Source of the DNA: Nitrospirota bacterium
GTDB taxonomy: Bacteria; Nitrospirota; UBA9217
Assembly (NCBI GenBank): GCA_020052615.1
Contig: JAGVOT010000101.1
Coordinates: 1 to 57,591, forward strand
Length of the DNA: 57,591 nucleotides
Direction: 5' to 3'
The translations under genes and the position numbers were made by a program. Numbering within the stretch: the stretch's first letter is position 1; each line of letters begins with the position of its first letter. The notes under the pieces were generated by a model. That model did not search any database and was not told the DNA's origin. It saw only the letters and a list, made by a program, of their open reading frames with translations. Below, in pieces: positions 44,949 through 52,449 of this stretch.

Positions 44949-46016
44949 TTATTTTTCCATTGTCAGGATAGTATAGCGGGTATCCCTCTGCGCAGCAGTG
45001 TAGCCGGCATCCTTGATGATATTCACGATCTCCTGCCGTGTCATCCTGAAACTTATCCCCGCCGCAGCGACAACATTTTCCTCGATCATCGTGCTTCCGA
45101 AGTCATTTGCCCCGAACTCAAGCGCCACCTGGGCTATTTTGGCACCCTGAGTCACCCAGGAGGCCTGGATGTTCGCGAAATTGTCGAGCATGATCCGTGA
45201 GAGGGCCAATACCTTCAAATACTCCACAGCCGTCGCTGAACGTCCTCCCAGCTCGGTGTTTCCCGGCTGGTAGGTCCAGGGGATGAATGCCGTAAAGCCC
45301 CTTGTCTCATCCTGAAGGTCCCGAAGCCTCACCAGGTGCTGGACGATCTCTTCTTTGGTCTCGAGACTGCCGAACATCATGGTGGCCGTCGTCGGCATCC
45401 CCAGACGGTGCGCCTCCTTCATGACCTCCATCCAGTCCCGCCAGCGGATCTTATTGGGGCTGACCTGTTCCCGGACACGATCAACAAGGATCTCCGCTCC
45501 TCCGCCCGGGATGGAGTCCAGGCCCGAGGCCTTGAGGCGTTTCAATGCGTCGGCAATGCTGATCTTCGCCTTTCGTGCAACATAGGTTATCTCGGAAGGT
45601 GAAAGCGAATGGACCTTGATCGAGAAGCGGGACCTGATGGAGGAGAACAGTTCCTCGAAGTAATCGATGCCGAGATCGGGGTGAACGCCGCCCTGCATGA
45701 GGATCTGGGTGCCGCCCAGGGCAATGGTCTCCTCGATCTTCCTGTAGATCTCCTCGTTCGAGAGGACATATGCATCGGGGCTGTCCGCCTCCCGGTAGAA
45801 CGCGCAGAACTTGCATTTGTTGACGCAAATATTCGTGTAGTTGATGTTCCGGTCCACGATGAAGGTCACGATCCGTTCGGGATGGAGCCGCTTTCTTATG
45901 GTACCGGCCAGTTCGCCCATGGTCAGCAGGTCCGTTTCCCGAAGGAGCGCGAGGCCTTCATCGGAATTGATCCTGACGCCGTCCCTGATCCTTTGTTCGA
46001 TCGGTCCTATCCCCAT
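44949..46016 (-). CDS. mqnC: Cyclic dehypoxanthinyl futalosine synthase
   Basis: 355 residues. Radical-SAM cysteines C64-x3-C68-x2-C71 in INYTNICVNKCKFCAFYR. MQGGVHPDLGIDYFEEL and GLDSIPGGGAEIL are MqnC/MqnE family marks, and PWTYQPGNTELGG is characteristic of MqnC. It closes the ring of dehypoxanthinyl futalosine on the way to menaquinone. The start overlaps the mqnE stop by 10 bases. The organism therefore uses the futalosine rather than the classical menaquinone route. Confidence 0.96.
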   Translation of the reverse strand: MGIGPIEQRIRDGVRINSDEGLALLRETDLLTMGELAGTIRKRLHPERIVTFIVDRNINYTNICVNKCKFCAFYREADSPDAYVLSNEEIYRKIEETIALGGTQILMQGGVHPDLGIDYFEELFSSIRSRFSIKVHSLSPSEITYVARKAKISIADALKRLKASGLDSIPGGGAEILVDRVREQVSPNKIRWRDWMEVMKEAHRLGMPTTATMMFGSLETKEEIVQHLVRLRDLQDETRGFTAFIPWTYQPGNTELGGRSATAVEYLKVLALSRIMLDNFANIQASWVTQGAKIAQVALEFGANDFGSTMIEENVVAAAGISFRMTRQEIVNIIKDAGYTAAQRDTRYTILTMEK

Positions 46017-47080
46017 ACCCGCACCGTGTTGTAGACCGTGTCCCGTTCGACCGGTGTTTTTCCCGCCTGTTTAATGAGGTCCACGAGGTCATCGCGGGTC
46101 ATGCTCCCGTCCGTGGTCCCGCCCGCCATTTTCGTGATCCGTTCCTCGACGACCGTGCCGTCGATGTCATCGACGCCGAAACTGAGCGATACCTGCGTGA
46201 TCTTCTCTCCCAGCATGACCCAGTATGCCTTGATGTGGTCGAAGTTGTCGAGCAGAAGACGGGAGACAGCCAGGGTCTTGAGATCGTCAAATCCCGTCGT
46301 GTAGGCGGACTTCGTGATCTCCGTGTTCTGAGCGTGAAAGCTCAGGGGGATGAATGCCTGGAAACCGCCGGTCCTGTCCTGGAGCTCGCGGAGCCTCAGG
46401 AGGTGGTCCACCCGGTCCTCGACCGTCTCGATATGTCCATAGAGCATGGTTGCGTTGGACTTGAGGCCGATGCCATGGGCCGTCTCCATCACCTCGAGCC
46501 AGCGGTCGCCGCTGATCTTTTCGGCGCACAGCGTGTTGCGAACGCCGGGATTGAAGATCTCGGCGCCTCCGCCGGGCAATGAGTCAAGGCCTGCCTCGCG
46601 GAGCGCGATCAGCGTTTTCTTCACACTGAGCCCGGAGAGCTTCGAGAAATAGTCGATCTCCACGGCGGTGAATGCTTTAATGTGCAGGTGGGGGACTTCA
46701 CGCTTCAGCGTTCTGAGCATGTCGAGGTACCACGAGAAGGGAAGGTCGGGATGGAGTCCCGATACGATATGGAGCTCCCGGACCCCCTTTTCAGCGCTCC
46801 TTGCCTTGTTCAAAATATCCTCGATGGACATTTCATAGGCACCTGTTTCGCCTTTGCTCCTGCTGAACGCGCAGAACTTGCAGCGGTTGACGCAGAGGTT
46901 TGTCGGGTTGATGTGCATGTTCTGGACGAAATACACCCGATCTGCGTTCTTCTGTTGTGCAACGTAGGAGGCCATCCGGCCGAGTGCGAGGAGGTCAAAG
47001 GAACCGAACAGGGCGATCCCTTGTTCACGCGAAAGGCGCTGGTTGGAGTATACTATTTCTTTGATATGATCGATGGACAT
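46007..47080 (-). CDS. mqnE: Aminodeoxyfutalosine synthase
   Basis: 357 residues from ATG 47080 (ATG 47092 is also in frame; neither has a good SD). Radical-SAM cysteines C63/C67/C70 in NPTNLCVNRCKFCAF, HIVSGLHPDLPF, AGLDSLPGGGAEIF and IPLSFHAQNT. It joins 3-[(1-carboxyvinyl)oxy]benzoate to adenosine from SAM, giving aminodeoxyfutalosine. Pairs with mqnC downstream. mqnA, mqnB and mqnD are not in the window. Confidence 0.95.
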   Translation of the reverse strand: MSIDHIKEIVYSNQRLSREQGIALFGSFDLLALGRMASYVAQQKNADRVYFVQNMHINPTNLCVNRCKFCAFSRSKGETGAYEMSIEDILNKARSAEKGVRELHIVSGLHPDLPFSWYLDMLRTLKREVPHLHIKAFTAVEIDYFSKLSGLSVKKTLIALREAGLDSLPGGGAEIFNPGVRNTLCAEKISGDRWLEVMETAHGIGLKSNATMLYGHIETVEDRVDHLLRLRELQDRTGGFQAFIPLSFHAQNTEITKSAYTTGFDDLKTLAVSRLLLDNFDHIKAYWVMLGEKITQVSLSFGVDDIDGTVVEERITKMAGGTTDGSMTRDDLVDLIKQAGKTPVERDTVYNTVRVWG

Positions 47081-47219
47081 GTAAGTATACATTTGCGAAC
47101 AGATCACCTGCAAGCTCGCTATTGGGATAGGTCATCACGGTTGCTTGCGTCGTCTCTTCAGCCAAGACGCGTGTTCGAGGCTGTGGCCGGACCTCTCGCT
47201 GATCACTTTGCGCCGCGCA

Positions 47220-50200
47220 TCACGGGGAACTGTTCTTTCCGCGATACAGGTGGGCTATAAGAAGCCGGATCGAGGGAGATTGCAGCTTATCGCCGGGCAA
47301 GAGGTGACCATTGGTCTCCCAGAGAAGAGCGGCTTCCCGCATGTTGCCTGATGATATGTTCCCCAACAAGCCGACCGAAAGGACATATTCCAGAAGGTCC
47401 GGCTGTACCACGTTCTTTTGCCGCATCTGATTCAGCAATTTACCTGCATACAGTGACATATGTGCCGGATCTTTATTTCCCACCGCCCTGATCAATGAAA
47501 TAAATTCGCGCTGGCCGGAGGTAAGCTGCTCCCTGCACACGGGCGACTCTATTGCCCGTAAAAGAACGGTGAGCTGTTCTGAACTCAGGTAGGGGACCAG
47601 ATCGGTGATGGTGTTCAGCATCGCTCTCCACCACTCCTGTTTCACGATGTCCATGGCCCCCTGACACTCCTTAATAAGCACTTGTCTCGCTACTATTGCA
47701 CTTCTCATAGCCTCGTCATTCAGCGGATTGTCGGGGTAGCTCCATTTCCATTGGCCGTTCATGAGATAATGATACAGCATTTCAGAAAAATGGATCTTCT
47801 GCGATTTTGGATATGCTGCATACGATACCGGGGGCATGGTTGCATCCCCCACGCGCCCTCCCAGCATTTGAACGATCGGCAGGCGGTTCATAGAGAGCGC
47901 ATGGAACTGATCGTATGAAGATGACAAGAAAAATCGACTGCGAACAGCATACAGATCAACGACGGGGGCGAAATCAGAATTGGTCGTTATCGCGTAGCTT
48001 GCAAAATAAGGAGCAAGGACCTTTTTATTGCCGAGCAGCCGGACCTTGATATCCTGCGGGCCCAGAACGTCTATGCGCCGAAGTTCGCCGGCCATCTCGC
48101 CCAGGGCAGAGAACGGCTGATAGTGCTCCCGGAGCGTTCCTGCGGGACGGGCAACAATGAGCATATCGGCACGGCTGGCGGCATATATGGCATAATCTGA
48201 AAAGTTCGGAGCAAGGGCGTTCATGATGGAAGCCACGAGAGGCATGTCTATTTCATAGAGCTGTATCCATTGAATGAACAGCCCGTTGTCGTTCAGATGC
48301 TGTCGTATACGGGAATAGAATTCGCTGGTGAACAGGCTTGCCACGCCGCTGACCCACGGATTGGAGGGTTCGGAAATGATGATGTCGTATTTCCTGTTAT
48401 GAAACGAAAAATACGATTTGGCATCTTCTATGTGCCGATGGCTGCGAGGGTCATTGTATGCTAGGCGCACCCGTGATCCGAAGAGTCTGGCGGCCTCTAT
48501 CATTTCCGGTTCTATCTCTATGGTGTCGATGCTCCTGATCTGGGGAGACGTCAACAGTGTATGGGTGGTGAGCCCCGAGCCCCATCCGATGATGGCCGCT
48601 GTTCTTGCTTCAGGCTGGAAAAGGGCGCCGATGGTCCCTGCCAGCACCATGGTCTCTTCATCACTGGCGTGCCCGTTTCCGGTTACCCGGATCCCAGCAT
48701 CAGGCTTTCCATTGGTTCTGATCTCCATGTTCCTTGAGTCCTTAACCACCGATACCGTGGCAGTCTTGCCATCGCGGTGGAAGATTGTCTCTGTTGTTCC
48801 AGGATCGAGGATGGTTCCGTATCGGTACACTCCGGATGCCATCTTGCCGGCGTCGAGATCCACCCAGAGCATGGGGAATAACAGAGCTGCAACGCCTGTG
48901 GCCGCATATGCAGTGCGGATGCCCCAGGACGGGTGTGACCACCAGACAAGTCCAAGCCCGAGTGCGATGTCTATCCCTGCTCCCAGGATGATGGTCCCTT
49001 TGAGGCCGAGCAGCGGCATGGCAACATGGATCGCCGTGAAGACGCCCAGGATCGAACCGATCGTGTTGAAGCCGTACACCGCGCCGACGCTTTTTTCACC
49101 TGCACTGTTTCGGAGAAGCGCTGCCGTGATGAGCGGAAGCGTCATGCCTGCGCAAAAGGCCGTGGGGAGCATGATGGCCACGGCAATGCCATGACTTGTA
49201 AGATTAAAAAGCACATACCCCATTTCGGATTTCGGCACGTTCCTGATCAACCACGCCATAACATTGAAGGTACCGCCGTAAACGGGCAGCGTGGCAAGTG
49301 CCAGAATGCCCATCGCTATCTGTACATGTGCAAGATAACGACGCGGATCGTCGAGTTGATCTATTCGCCTCTTGATCCATAACCCGCCGAATGCGATCCC
49401 CATGATGAAGGCGCTGAGCATGAGTTCGAAGGAATGGGTGGACGATCCGAGCACGAGGCTCAGCATCCTGATCCAGCCGATCTCGTAAATGAATGAGGAG
49501 AGCCCTGTCAGCAGGGCGATTAAAAGAAACACTGCATACACAACAGGAGGGGTGGTGCCCGGAACGTGGGGTGTTGCGGTAGGACGATCTTTGGCACGGA
49601 TCGATTGGTATTGTTTATCCTCAAGCCAGACAACTGCCGCTACAGTTATGTTGATAAAGCTGGCAATGATAAGGGTACCCGGCAGTCCGACCCATCCAAT
49701 GAAGAGGAATCCGCTTGCCAGCACTCCGATCGCCGCGCCGATGCTGTTGGTAAAATAGAGCATCGCGATCGTGGATCCCGGAGTGCCGGGAAATCTCCTC
49801 AAGAGGCCTGCTGTCATGAGCGGAAACGTCATGCCCAGCAGGATGGACTGTGGCAGGATCAGCAGGACCGCCGCGGCCCATTTAAATGTCGCAACTGCCG
49901 CAGGAGAACCTAAGGCCGGCATGAAGCTGGTATATGCCAGTTCGATGAACTGGGCATAGATCGGATGAAATAAGGCCGCGCATAGCCCGATGATCACTTC
50001 TACGACAACATAGCCGATCAGGAGGTTGCTGATCCGCTCGGAATATTTTGCGCAAAACAGTGATCCTATTGCCATGCCCCCCATGAAAACGGCGAGGACG
50101 AGGGCTTGCGCATAGGCAGCATGGCCCAGGAAGAGCTTCAAATAGTGGGTCCAAATGGATTCGTAGATAAGGCCAGCAAAGCCTGAGGCGGTGAATATGA

Positions 50201-50231
50201 AAAAAAACAGGCGGGGACTTCTGTTGATCAT
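47220..50231 (-). CDS. Fused membrane (MFS-like) and spermidine-synthase-like protein
   Basis: 1003 residues. Residues 1-200 and 220-420 are two sets of about six TM helices with SGFAGLIYESIWTHYLKLFLG and a second internal copy (GLSSFIYEIGWIRMLSLVLGSS). Residues 440-700 are a spermidine-synthase-type methyltransferase domain: GWGSGLTTH SAM-binding turn, DTIEIEPEMIEAA and YDIIISEPSNPWVSG. A further 300 helical residues follow with no motif I recognise. This fusion is widespread, but its substrate is unknown; true polyamine synthesis is not established. In the same direction as mqnE and mqnC, 139 bases upstream. Confidence 0.88.
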   Translation of the reverse strand: MINRSPRLFFFIFTASGFAGLIYESIWTHYLKLFLGHAAYAQALVLAVFMGGMAIGSLFCAKYSERISNLLIGYVVVEVIIGLCAALFHPIYAQFIELAYTSFMPALGSPAAVATFKWAAAVLLILPQSILLGMTFPLMTAGLLRRFPGTPGSTIAMLYFTNSIGAAIGVLASGFLFIGWVGLPGTLIIASFINITVAAVVWLEDKQYQSIRAKDRPTATPHVPGTTPPVVYAVFLLIALLTGLSSFIYEIGWIRMLSLVLGSSTHSFELMLSAFIMGIAFGGLWIKRRIDQLDDPRRYLAHVQIAMGILALATLPVYGGTFNVMAWLIRNVPKSEMGYVLFNLTSHGIAVAIMLPTAFCAGMTLPLITAALLRNSAGEKSVGAVYGFNTIGSILGVFTAIHVAMPLLGLKGTIILGAGIDIALGLGLVWWSHPSWGIRTAYAATGVAALLFPMLWVDLDAGKMASGVYRYGTILDPGTTETIFHRDGKTATVSVVKDSRNMEIRTNGKPDAGIRVTGNGHASDEETMVLAGTIGALFQPEARTAAIIGWGSGLTTHTLLTSPQIRSIDTIEIEPEMIEAARLFGSRVRLAYNDPRSHRHIEDAKSYFSFHNRKYDIIISEPSNPWVSGVASLFTSEFYSRIRQHLNDNGLFIQWIQLYEIDMPLVASIMNALAPNFSDYAIYAASRADMLIVARPAGTLREHYQPFSALGEMAGELRRIDVLGPQDIKVRLLGNKKVLAPYFASYAITTNSDFAPVVDLYAVRSRFFLSSSYDQFHALSMNRLPIVQMLGGRVGDATMPPVSYAAYPKSQKIHFSEMLYHYLMNGQWKWSYPDNPLNDEAMRSAIVARQVLIKECQGAMDIVKQEWWRAMLNTITDLVPYLSSEQLTVLLRAIESPVCREQLTSGQREFISLIRAVGNKDPAHMSLYAGKLLNQMRQKNVVQPDLLEYVLSVGLLGNISSGNMREAALLWETNGHLLPGDKLQSPSIRLLIAHLYRGKNSSP

Positions 50232-50252
50232 GAAAAGGATCTTCTTTCAGGT

Positions 50253-51497
50253 TCAAGATTTCGATGCATTGGCGTTTCTTAATTGTTGTTGATGCAGAAT
50301 ATGACCATTGACCATCGACATAATACAGGTTTTCGTTTCCCTGAGCAAGCCGGAATAGAGATCGCCGGTGTTGTTTTGGGGGAGGGTAACGGCGATGAGG
50401 TCAGCCTTTTTCCCGGGCTCAATACTGCCGATCTCCTTCCCCATACCGAGTGCCTCGGCGCCGCCCATGGTGGCCATGCGAAAAATTTCCGCCGGCGTGA
50501 CGCCGGAACGCCGGTGGACCTGATAGGCATAGCGCATCTCATCCCAGAGATTGAGAGTAGGAACGCTTGCCAGGCTGTCGGTGCCGAGCCCCACGGAGAT
50601 CCGTGCGTCAAGGAACTTCCTCAACGGCATGATGCCGACACCGATCTCACGGTTGCTTCGCGGACAATGCGCGATCGCGGCTCCCGATCTTTTAATCAGA
50701 GCGATATCCGAATTGTCGGCATGCACGGCATGCACGGCCAGGAAGGAGGGGTCCAGGACCCCGAGCCGATGCAGATGATCGAATGAAGAACGCGCAACAG
50801 GAGCTATGCTCATATTCCATCGGGCGGCAGTGTACAGTCGCTCCAAATCGCTCTTCCTTCGCTGAAACAGAAATGTCTCTTCGCGAGTTTCCGCAACGTG
50901 CATGCAGAGGCGGAGGTGTCTTTTGGATGAGACCTGATGGATCGCTCGCAGGGCAGGGCCTGAGACCGTGTGAGGTGAGTGGGGAGAGACGCCGTAGTGC
51001 ATTAGCTGGGAAACAGGACCATGGCGCGGAAAGGCCAGGCCGCTGAGTTCTTTCCTCATGAAGATGATCTCGTGATATACGACCGACCGCAATCCGCTCT
51101 TTCTGAGCACGAGTGGACTGACCCCATGAGTGCTGATCTCCGCGATCGTAGTCGTGCCCGATCGCATGAGAACTTCGACATTACCACGTGCTGCGGTTGT
51201 ATAGTCACGGCGAGTAAGACGTTTTTTCCTGTCAAGGAGGTTGAACACCCAATCAGTGTAGCTTTGTGCACGTATAGAATCAAGGAGAGGAGGCAGCTCG
51301 AGATGGGTATGGACATTGACAAGTCCCGGCATGACGACCGACTGTGCCAAACGGACGATGCGATGACCGGGATATGCCTTCAGAATGGCTGCTGCCTTGC
51401 CGACAGCGTGGATCCGTCCATGTTTTACGACGACGGCCCCGGCAGCAAGGGGGGATTGGTCAATCCTAGTAATTATCCTGTCAGCTTGGATGATCAT
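50253..51497 (-). CDS. Amidohydrolase, candidate aminodeoxyfutalosine deaminase (MqnX)
   Basis: 414 residues from ATG 51497. Zinc amidohydrolase of the cytosine-deaminase/ATZ-TRZ group: VMPGLVNVHTHLELPP (His 63, His 65), LCMHVAETREE, AVHAVHADNSD, AHCPRSN and GLGTDSLAS. Futalosine-route organisms that lack direct hydrolysis need an enzyme to deaminate aminodeoxyfutalosine, and characterised ones belong to this group. Its place upstream of mqnE and mqnC on one strand supports that role. 8-oxoguanine or S-adenosylhomocysteine deamination is the alternative. The predicted promoter ends 9 bases before the ATG. Confidence 0.75.
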   Translation of the reverse strand: MIIQADRIITRIDQSPLAAGAVVVKHGRIHAVGKAAAILKAYPGHRIVRLAQSVVMPGLVNVHTHLELPPLLDSIRAQSYTDWVFNLLDRKKRLTRRDYTTAARGNVEVLMRSGTTTIAEISTHGVSPLVLRKSGLRSVVYHEIIFMRKELSGLAFPRHGPVSQLMHYGVSPHSPHTVSGPALRAIHQVSSKRHLRLCMHVAETREETFLFQRRKSDLERLYTAARWNMSIAPVARSSFDHLHRLGVLDPSFLAVHAVHADNSDIALIKRSGAAIAHCPRSNREIGVGIMPLRKFLDARISVGLGTDSLASVPTLNLWDEMRYAYQVHRRSGVTPAEIFRMATMGGAEALGMGKEIGSIEPGKKADLIAVTLPQNNTGDLYSGLLRETKTCIMSMVNGHILHQQQLRNANASKS

Positions 51498-51506
51498 CTT
51501 CCGCAC

Positions 51507-51535
51507 ACAGTACCATGAGATCCGATGGCTGTCAA
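51507..51535 (-). promoter_or_regulatory. Promoter of the amidohydrolase-mqn operon
   Basis: Minus strand: TTGACA (51535-51530), 17-base spacer, TACTGT (51512-51507). Perfect -35, modest -10. The -10 ends 9 bases before ATG 51497, so the message would be nearly leaderless. GGAAG touches the ATG and cannot act as an SD. Confidence 0.55.
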
Positions 51536-51547
51536 TCGACGACGCGA

Positions 51548-51585
51548 GTGACAAATAATGTCACACGCAATGACAGGATATGTGT
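51548..51585. promoter_or_regulatory. Paired dyads upstream of pilA, candidate enhancer sites
   Basis: GTGACA-AATAA-TGTCAC (51548-51564) is a perfect 6+5+6 dyad. A second site TGACA-GGATA-TGTGT (51571-51585) has the same spacing and starts exactly 22 bases later (two helical turns). Relative to the predicted sigma-54 start near 51663 the first is centred at about -107, a usual place for an activator such as PilR. They also lie just upstream of the divergent amidohydrolase promoter. Confidence 0.55.
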
Positions 51586-51636
51586 GGAGTAGCAGTAATA
51601 ACATTGCTAAGCACTTGAAATAAAATATAAATACAA

Positions 51637-51653
51637 TGGCATATAACATGCAT
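51637..51653 (+). promoter_or_regulatory. Sigma-54 promoter of the pilin gene
   Basis: TGGCAT-ATAAC-ATGCAT. The invariant GG (51638-51639) and GC (51650-51651) are separated by exactly 10 bases, as in -24/-12 promoters. Predicted start near 51663, giving a leader of about 124 bases. pilA genes of Geobacter, Myxococcus and Pseudomonas are sigma-54/PilR dependent. Confidence 0.7.
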
Positions 51654-51672
51654 GATAAGCACCGAAGAACAT

Positions 51673-51729
51673 AAAGAGTTTAAGGTCCGAGAGGAGGTGA
51701 AACTACCCATAAAGGCCTTAAACAACTTT
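51673..51729 (+). promoter_or_regulatory. Structured pilA leader
   Basis: GTTTAAGG (51678-51685) pairs perfectly with CCTTAAAC (51716-51723), extended by AAAG/CTTT across a small internal loop. The 30-base loop contains GAGAGGAGGTGAAAC, an SD-like element not used by pilA itself. A 14-codon GTG frame (51697-51741) starts there, but its spacing to an SD is poor. It does not match the c-di-GMP riboswitch consensus I know. Confidence 0.45.
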
Positions 51730-51786
51730 AAGACAGCATAGCATCTCTGAAAATAATCTCTAAATCGTTATGGGAGGTATTAAAAA

Positions 51787-52389
51787 ATGAAAATGAATAA
51801 AAAAGGTTTTACTCTTATCGAACTCCTGATCGTGGTGGCCATTATCGCTATCCTGGCGGCCATCGCCATCCCGCAGTTCAGCAGCTATCGCATCCGCGGA
51901 TATAACTCTGCAGCAACCGCCGACCTTCGGAACGCCCGTACGGCAGAAGAGGCTTTCTTCTCCGACTGGCAGGTTTATTCGTCGAGCGTTCTTGCAACCG
52001 GCGCGCCGGGTGTAGGCGATGTGATCCAGAATAACACGCCGGTCCCGCAGGTCACTATCGCAGTTAACGGCATTTCCGGTACGGCACCGAGCGCAGCCAC
52101 GACGTTCAATACCGGTGTTTCTCAGAACGTGGGTCTCGTACTGAACACCTCCGTCCTGGGCGGCAGCTTCACCGGCGGAGCTAAGAACGGAGCTGGCGAC
52201 AGATGCTTTGGCATGGACTCTGATTTCACGCCTATCTATTGGATCAATGGTCCGGTTGGGTCTATCATGGCCAACACAGGCGTTCCTGTTGCACTGGCGA
52301 GCACGGTTACCAGCGATCTGGCCGGCAAGGGCGGTGTTCTTCCCTGCCTCGGCACTGCACCGGCCACCGTGGTCTGGGCCGCTCTGTAA
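51787..52389 (+). CDS. pilA: Type IV major pilin
   Basis: 200 residues. A short basic leader ends in KKG (cleavage after Gly 7), then FTLIELLIVVAIIAILAAIA with Phe +1 and Glu +5. About 165 residues of globular domain follow, with a Cys 140/Cys 187 pair that could form the D-region disulfide. The leader SD GGAGGT is 8 bases upstream of ATG 51787. Sigma-54 promoter, paired upstream sites and a terminator make it a separate, highly controlled transcript. The long globular domain differs from the truncated pilin of Geobacter sulfurreducens. Confidence 0.92.
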   Translation: MKMNKKGFTLIELLIVVAIIAILAAIAIPQFSSYRIRGYNSAATADLRNARTAEEAFFSDWQVYSSSVLATGAPGVGDVIQNNTPVPQVTIAVNGISGTAPSAATTFNTGVSQNVGLVLNTSVLGGSFTGGAKNGAGDRCFGMDSDFTPIYWINGPVGSIMANTGVPVALASTVTSDLAGKGGVLPCLGTAPATVVWAAL

Positions 52390-52421: not shown

Positions 52422-52449
52422 AAAAGGCCGGGTAACCCCCGGCCTTTTT
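52422..52449 (+). terminator. Terminator after pilA
   Basis: Stem AAGGCCGGG / CCCGGCCTT (9 bp plus flanking A/T pairs, 5-base loop) followed by TTTC. It isolates pilA from the ABC genes. Confidence 0.9.

Follow-up and report, generated by a model that had tools for sequence, protein, structure and literature searches.

How does a Nitrospirota bacterium control the expression of its type IV pilin? The question is raised by the region between pilA and a divergently transcribed amidohydrolase gene, within a stretch of 57,591 nucleotides that we analysed as a whole and refer to as the window. The first-pass annotation of this DNA had placed a sigma-54 promoter and two dyad-symmetric sites ahead of pilA, and had suggested that a PilR-type activator binds them. 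Our comparisons, for which metagenome-assembled genomes were used throughout, indicate that the region very probably places the major pilin gene under the control of PilS-PilR and sigma-54. That assignment concerns the transcriptional half of the question. The leader of the mRNA has conserved elements of its own, for which we offer a more tentative proposal. The features are collected in Table 1.

Table 1. Features of the pilA region; positions are those of the window
Feature	Positions	Strand	Remarks
Divergent amidohydrolase, aminofutalosine-deaminase-like	50253..51497	-	Shares intergenic region with pilA
Predicted activator dyad 1, TGACAAATAATGTCA	51549..51563	+	Perfect palindrome, centre about -107; present in 5/5 family pilA orthologues
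Predicted activator dyad 2, TGACAGGATATGTGT	51571..51585	+	Right arm degenerate; starts 22 bp after dyad 1
Sigma-54 -24/-12 promoter, TGGCATATAACATGCAT	51637..51653	+	TGGCAT-ATAAC-ATGCAT, GG-N10-GC
Predicted transcript start	51662..51664	+	From sigma-54 geometry, 11-13 bases past the -12 GC
Conserved leader stem-loop, stem GTTTAAGGTC/GGCCTTAAAC	51678..51723	+	
Orphan extended Shine-Dalgarno (SD), GAGGAGGTGA	51691..51700	+	In loop, about 28 nt from predicted 5' end
CCCATAA, complementary to TTATGGG (51768-51774) at the true SD	51706..51712	+	Possible long-range pairing, from sequence only
True pilA ribosome-binding site, TTATGGGAGG	51768..51777	+	Assigned from sequence; conserved in orthologues
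pilA, type IV pilin, 200 aa (MKMNKKGFTLIELLIVVAIIAIL...)	51787..52389	+	PF07963 N_methyl, TIGR02532
Probable pilA terminator, hairpin GGCCGGG-TAACC-CCCGGCC then T5	52426..52449	+	By eye; absent from automated hairpin scan

The promoter and paired dyads ahead of pilA

The pilin assignment has profile support, with 39.5 bits for the N_methyl family (cut-off 21.2) and 38.2 bits for TIGR02532 (cut-off 16.3). The -24/-12 element and both sites of the form TGACA-N5-TGT(C/G)N are found at the coordinates that the first-pass annotation had given, including the 22 bp between their starts and the centre of the first near -107. In the promoter the GG at 51638-51639 and the GC at 51650-51651 are separated by 10 bases, and the single departure from a TGGCAY-N5-TTGCW-like context is ATGC instead of TTGC. 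On the assumption of a transcript start at about 51663, some 12 bases past 51651, the dyads are centred at about -107 and -85, inside the range of 80-150 bp for activator sites of a sigma-54 pilA promoter.

On its own the promoter is not significant, with 0.25 occurrences expected by chance in the 57.6 kb window; the corresponding values are 0.02 for the perfect dyad and 0.00 for the dyad pair (100 shuffles). Both strands of the window's own genome (G000) hold 12 matches to TGACA-N5-TGTSW against 8 in a reversed control, and the second perfect dyad that we inspected, at C85:184558, falls within a coding region. The dyad by itself was rejected as a marker on these grounds. It is the arrangement of dyads and promoter that is informative, whereas a lone dyad is uninformative genome-wide. 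We conclude that pilA is preceded by a true sigma-54 promoter and a pair of predicted activator sites. The 31 Sigma54_activat proteins encoded in the genome imply that rpoN is present.

Conservation provides a further line of evidence. Four genomes of the same family, f1 (G001, G004, G007 and G010), carry orthologues of this pilA. The first-pass annotation had named the loss of the dyads from close relatives as the observation that would count against it; instead, both dyads and the promoter are present in all five family genomes that hold the gene. The first dyad occurs as TGACAAATAATGTCA, TGACATAATTTGTCA, TGACATTATTTGTCA or TGACATTTTTCGTCA, the left arm TGAC of the second is retained in every orthologue, the two are spaced by 22, 22, 22, 21 and 23 bp, and TGGCA-N7-TGC is found each time. 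The stretch separating dyads from promoter aligns poorly except in the nearest pair. None of the four pilin paralogues that we inspected in G000 and G001 has the arrangement, which therefore belongs to this pilA gene. The family footprint is limited to five genomes, since in several f1 genomes (G003, G005, G008, G009 and G012) PilR is present and no pilA orthologue was found; the pilins retrieved from other f1 genomes have no dyad ahead of them.

Among the paralogues, the pilins at G000:C121:29773 and G000:C96:8150 are 55-57% identical to this PilA and lack a dyad/sigma-54 region. The C96 copy adjoins amtB and an ntrB/ntrC-like pair, and its neighbouring NtrC-type regulator was considered as PilR and rejected on account of the accompanying amtB and ntrB-like kinase.

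Across the phylum, the pattern TGAC-N7-GTCA followed 60-88 bp on by TGGCA-N7-TGC gave 54 matches in 198 Nitrospirota genomes, against 4 for the reversed-pattern control. From reading the downstream sequence, 24 of these lie directly ahead of pilins: the five f1 pilA genes and 19 of the 49 others. Of the remaining 30, some clearly arose by chance in GC-rich coding regions. The suggestion that the motif could define a regulon holds in part: at the stringency used, pilA is the sole dyad-plus-promoter case in its own genome, and the phylum also has candidate non-pilin targets. One candidate is a small two-CxxC protein of 56-70 residues (MNCPKCSGLMVAERFADYFL...), which follows such a region in four genomes (loci L106, L107, L109 and L115, in G040, G015, G118 and G182, respectively) and matches no Pfam family at cut-off; another is a secreted protein of about 155 residues, found in two genomes. 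As an additional promoter element, IHF sites between dyad and promoter were rejected: matches occur in 4 of 24 pilA-type loci (L116, L119, L120 and L147; 0.4 expected from shuffling) and in none of f1.

The divergent gene has its own points of interest. Its product scores 170 bits against PF01979 and 177.7 bits against NF006269, the latter under the cut-off of 320. Together with two radical-SAM genes, of MqnC/CofH type as judged by eye, it suggests a futalosine menaquinone cluster at 44949-51554, divergent from pilA; a 1003-residue spermidine-synthase-like membrane protein is encoded in between.

PilR as the predicted activator

A pilT-pilC-pilS-pilR cluster is encoded at G000:C85. Its PilS is of the six-TM kind (PF25323, 6TM_PilS, 82.1 bits) and its PilR is NtrC-like, with receiver, Sigma54_activat and Fis-type HTH (HTH_8) domains, both in the context of pil genes. 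The cluster and pilA are on different contigs. In families f4, f6 and f7, however, the PilR orthologue is encoded immediately ahead of pilA.

Our assignment is furthered by the observation that operator and activator appear to have changed together. The residues concerned are, from alignment with NtrC, those that we take to be the DNA-contacting start of the PilR recognition helix. This reads FRSF or FRQF in f1, f3, f5, f7, f8 (with one LRSF member), f13, f15, f17 and f19, and the pilin operators of these families, where found, are of the TGACA type (f1, f5, f7, f8, f13, f17 and f19 among others). The f4 helix starts FPSF, FPSL or FPAL, and there the operator takes the form TGATG-N5-CATCA; each of the five genomes has two copies at a distance of exactly 22 bp, the second being degenerate in one genome. 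The exact f4 sequence stands ahead of pilins in four f4 genomes; eight scattered matches elsewhere resemble chance. Family f9 combines an NTRSF helix with a site, 115-119 bp ahead of the -24 element, whose sequence is TG(C/T)CA-N5-TGGC or nearly so. The f9 pattern was found in 24 f9 genomes, ahead of the pilin in each, and neither in the other families nor in the reversed control. The PilR tree places f9 with f3, whereas f4 groups with f6 and f7; the two shifts, being on different branches, are thus separate.

We regard this co-change as the strongest evidence here for PilR as the probable binder, in the form of a correlation over two clade-level events between PilR proteins that also differ at other positions. 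Operator and PilR were taken from the same genome for part of the families, others, such as f5, being matched via other members. Taken with the conservation of the sites, the pilS-pilR cluster and the pilR-pilA adjacency, the co-change lends support to the first-pass suggestion of sigma-54 and an activator of the PilR type that recognizes the dyads.

The genome offers other candidates. That a different member of its 31 NtrC-family activators binds the dyads, with PilR acting elsewhere, would accord with the separation of pilR and pilA on different contigs; we consider it decidedly improbable, because pilR directly precedes pilA in three families and in two clades the operator sequence tracks the recognition helix of PilR. 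It is hardly credible that the dyads serve the amidohydrolase gene or form a repressor operator unrelated to sigma-54: that gene is divergent from pilA in all five f1 loci, with the dyads 52-88 bp upstream of its ATG, but elsewhere in the phylum dyad and -24/-12 element precede pilins at a similar distance, and a 22 bp spacing between paired sites, in the region from -80 to -110, is the geometry of activator sites.

We therefore retain PilR as the preferred activator. PilR, encoded with PilS on C85, would bind both TGACA-N5-TGTCA-type dyads, at about -107 and -85 on the same side of the helix, and oligomerize there; its AAA+ domain would then remodel the sigma-54 polymerase held at the promoter, with transcription predicted to start near 51663. 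In most of the Nitrospirota families examined the dyad would be the PilR operator, operator and recognition helix having apparently shifted together in two clades. Such a region would provide a ready PilR operator for a largely uncultured phylum and, with three helix types matched to three operator types, a natural experiment on specificity.

The first-pass annotation had added that the site is not the Pseudomonas aeruginosa consensus. The PilR half-site of that species is (C/G)TGTC, which the TGTC/GACA core of the dyads matches, and to that extent the statement fails; it stands for the fixed arrangement, in which a perfect N5 dyad recurs after two helical turns. This organization is unlike the P. 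aeruginosa elements TGT-N11-AGA and GTCT, and in that system PilR activation acts through the pilA promoter (PMC6058289). The PilS-PilR systems of P. aeruginosa and Geobacter sulfurreducens share with the present one a sigma-54 promoter, a six-TM PilS, an NtrC-type PilR and the location of pilS-pilR in a pil cluster. Geobacter has pilA immediately after pilR (PMC2725144), an order that resembles f4, f6 and f7 and differs from that in the window's genome, where pilA is not beside pilSR.

The leader of the pilA mRNA

About 124 nt of the predicted mRNA precede the ATG. Near the 5' end lies GAGGAGGTGA, complementary over nearly its whole length to what we take to be the anti-SD sequence at the 3' end of 16S rRNA. 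Within it AGGAGGTGA is invariant in the five orthologues, and no start codon follows at SD spacing; we refer to it as the orphan SD. Of the 44 leaders of sigma-54 pilin genes compared across the phylum, 23 have the same feature, against 0.42 expected from first-order resampling (maximum 4 in 2000). Two of the 23 loci, L181 and L182, had been fetched with a pattern containing GGAGGTGA, and dropping the three loci obtained in this way leaves 21 of 41. In most of the non-pilin sigma-54 loci inspected, this sequence has the position of a conventional SD: counted from its first base, a start codon follows after 9-16 nt. The orphan SD is absent from the pilin leaders of f4, f9 and most of f17, which means that it is not required for pilin expression.

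In f1 the orphan SD lies in a conserved stem of 10 pairs, in which 92% of cells are paired and three pairs have two-sided changes; 17 of 500 shuffles were equally good. The stem encloses (C/T)GAGAGGAGGTGA-n-CCCATAA, in a slightly different form in G007. Extended to the phylum, GGAGGTGA-N-CCCATA was rejected as a motif: outside f1 its matches are near the control rate, and the additional matches inspected (L077, L097, L098 and L100) are without pilins.

We tentatively view the orphan SD as a STAB-SD-like mRNA stabilizer or a standby site. The nearest known device, by analogy, appears to be the STAB-SD of Bacillus thuringiensis cry3A, which binds the 30S subunit and blocks RNase J1; it is non-translating, lies near the 5' end of a leader of about 129 nt, and is separated from the start codon by about 100 nt (PMC4113751). 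Both have an SD-like sequence near the (here predicted) 5' end and leaders of comparable length, and the present organism has RNase J (TIGR00649, 614.7 bits, cut-off 400). They differ in that ours is in a Gram-negative phylum, on pilin mRNAs, where ribosome binding and stabilization are putative. The orphan SD might bind 30S subunits and so shield an abundant pilA mRNA from 5' exonuclease attack by RNase J, or might load ribosomes for the true site, a scheme that we put somewhat short of probable. A wider proposal is held with the same reserve: in much of the Nitrospirota, pilin mRNAs would have a dedicated leader that binds ribosomes without initiating and determines mRNA stability or translation, a cry3A-like device at work on a surface appendage outside the Gram-positives. 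We found no description of a second ribosome-binding sequence far ahead of a pilin gene. If STAB-SD-like, the orphan SD would extend such control to Gram-negative pilins and could explain the long, conserved pilA leaders.

Two other explanations of the leader merit consideration. A translational switch, in which CCCATAA pairs with TTATGGG and keeps the true SD inaccessible, to be released by a ligand, protein or ribosome, is in our judgement unlikely. The complementarity is retained in four of five orthologues (7 nt in G000, G001 and G010, 6 nt in G004) and compensatory changes occur in the enclosing stem, but the long-range pairing itself has one mismatch in G007 and no compensatory change among the five, and the predicted leader fold is no stronger than that of shuffles (z -1.06). 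The window's leader and those of 19 other pilA loci (20 in total) gave no Rfam match above gathering, the sole Rfam result at the window being a chance-level snoRNA match near the promoter. The c-di-GMP riboswitches and other structured leaders are likewise found ahead of surface-appendage genes; here no such family was matched.

It is more doubtful still that the orphan SD serves to translate a short upstream reading frame with a regulatory effect on pilA. Its near-perfect SD character would suit this role, and a frame of about 60 codons follows it in the G197 locus (L150), but most leaders have no ATG, GTG or TTG at SD spacing, what follows shows no conservation at the protein level, and the conserved bases in f1 fit a stem. 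For the leader we tentatively favour the non-initiating, STAB-SD-like reading.

Two minor observations concern other hairpins near pilin genes. In many families small GC-rich hairpins of varying sequence stand just ahead of the true pilA SD (L116-L150, for example GCGGTTTTTAACCGC, CCGCCATTGGCGG and GCTGGCTTTGCCAGC). Between the tandem pilin genes of f4 there are near-perfect hairpins, at about 2055 in L018 (GGGGGTGAA-GCG-ATTCACCCCC) and about 1987 in L022 (GGGGGTGAG...CTCGCCCCC), which are possibly processing or attenuation sites.
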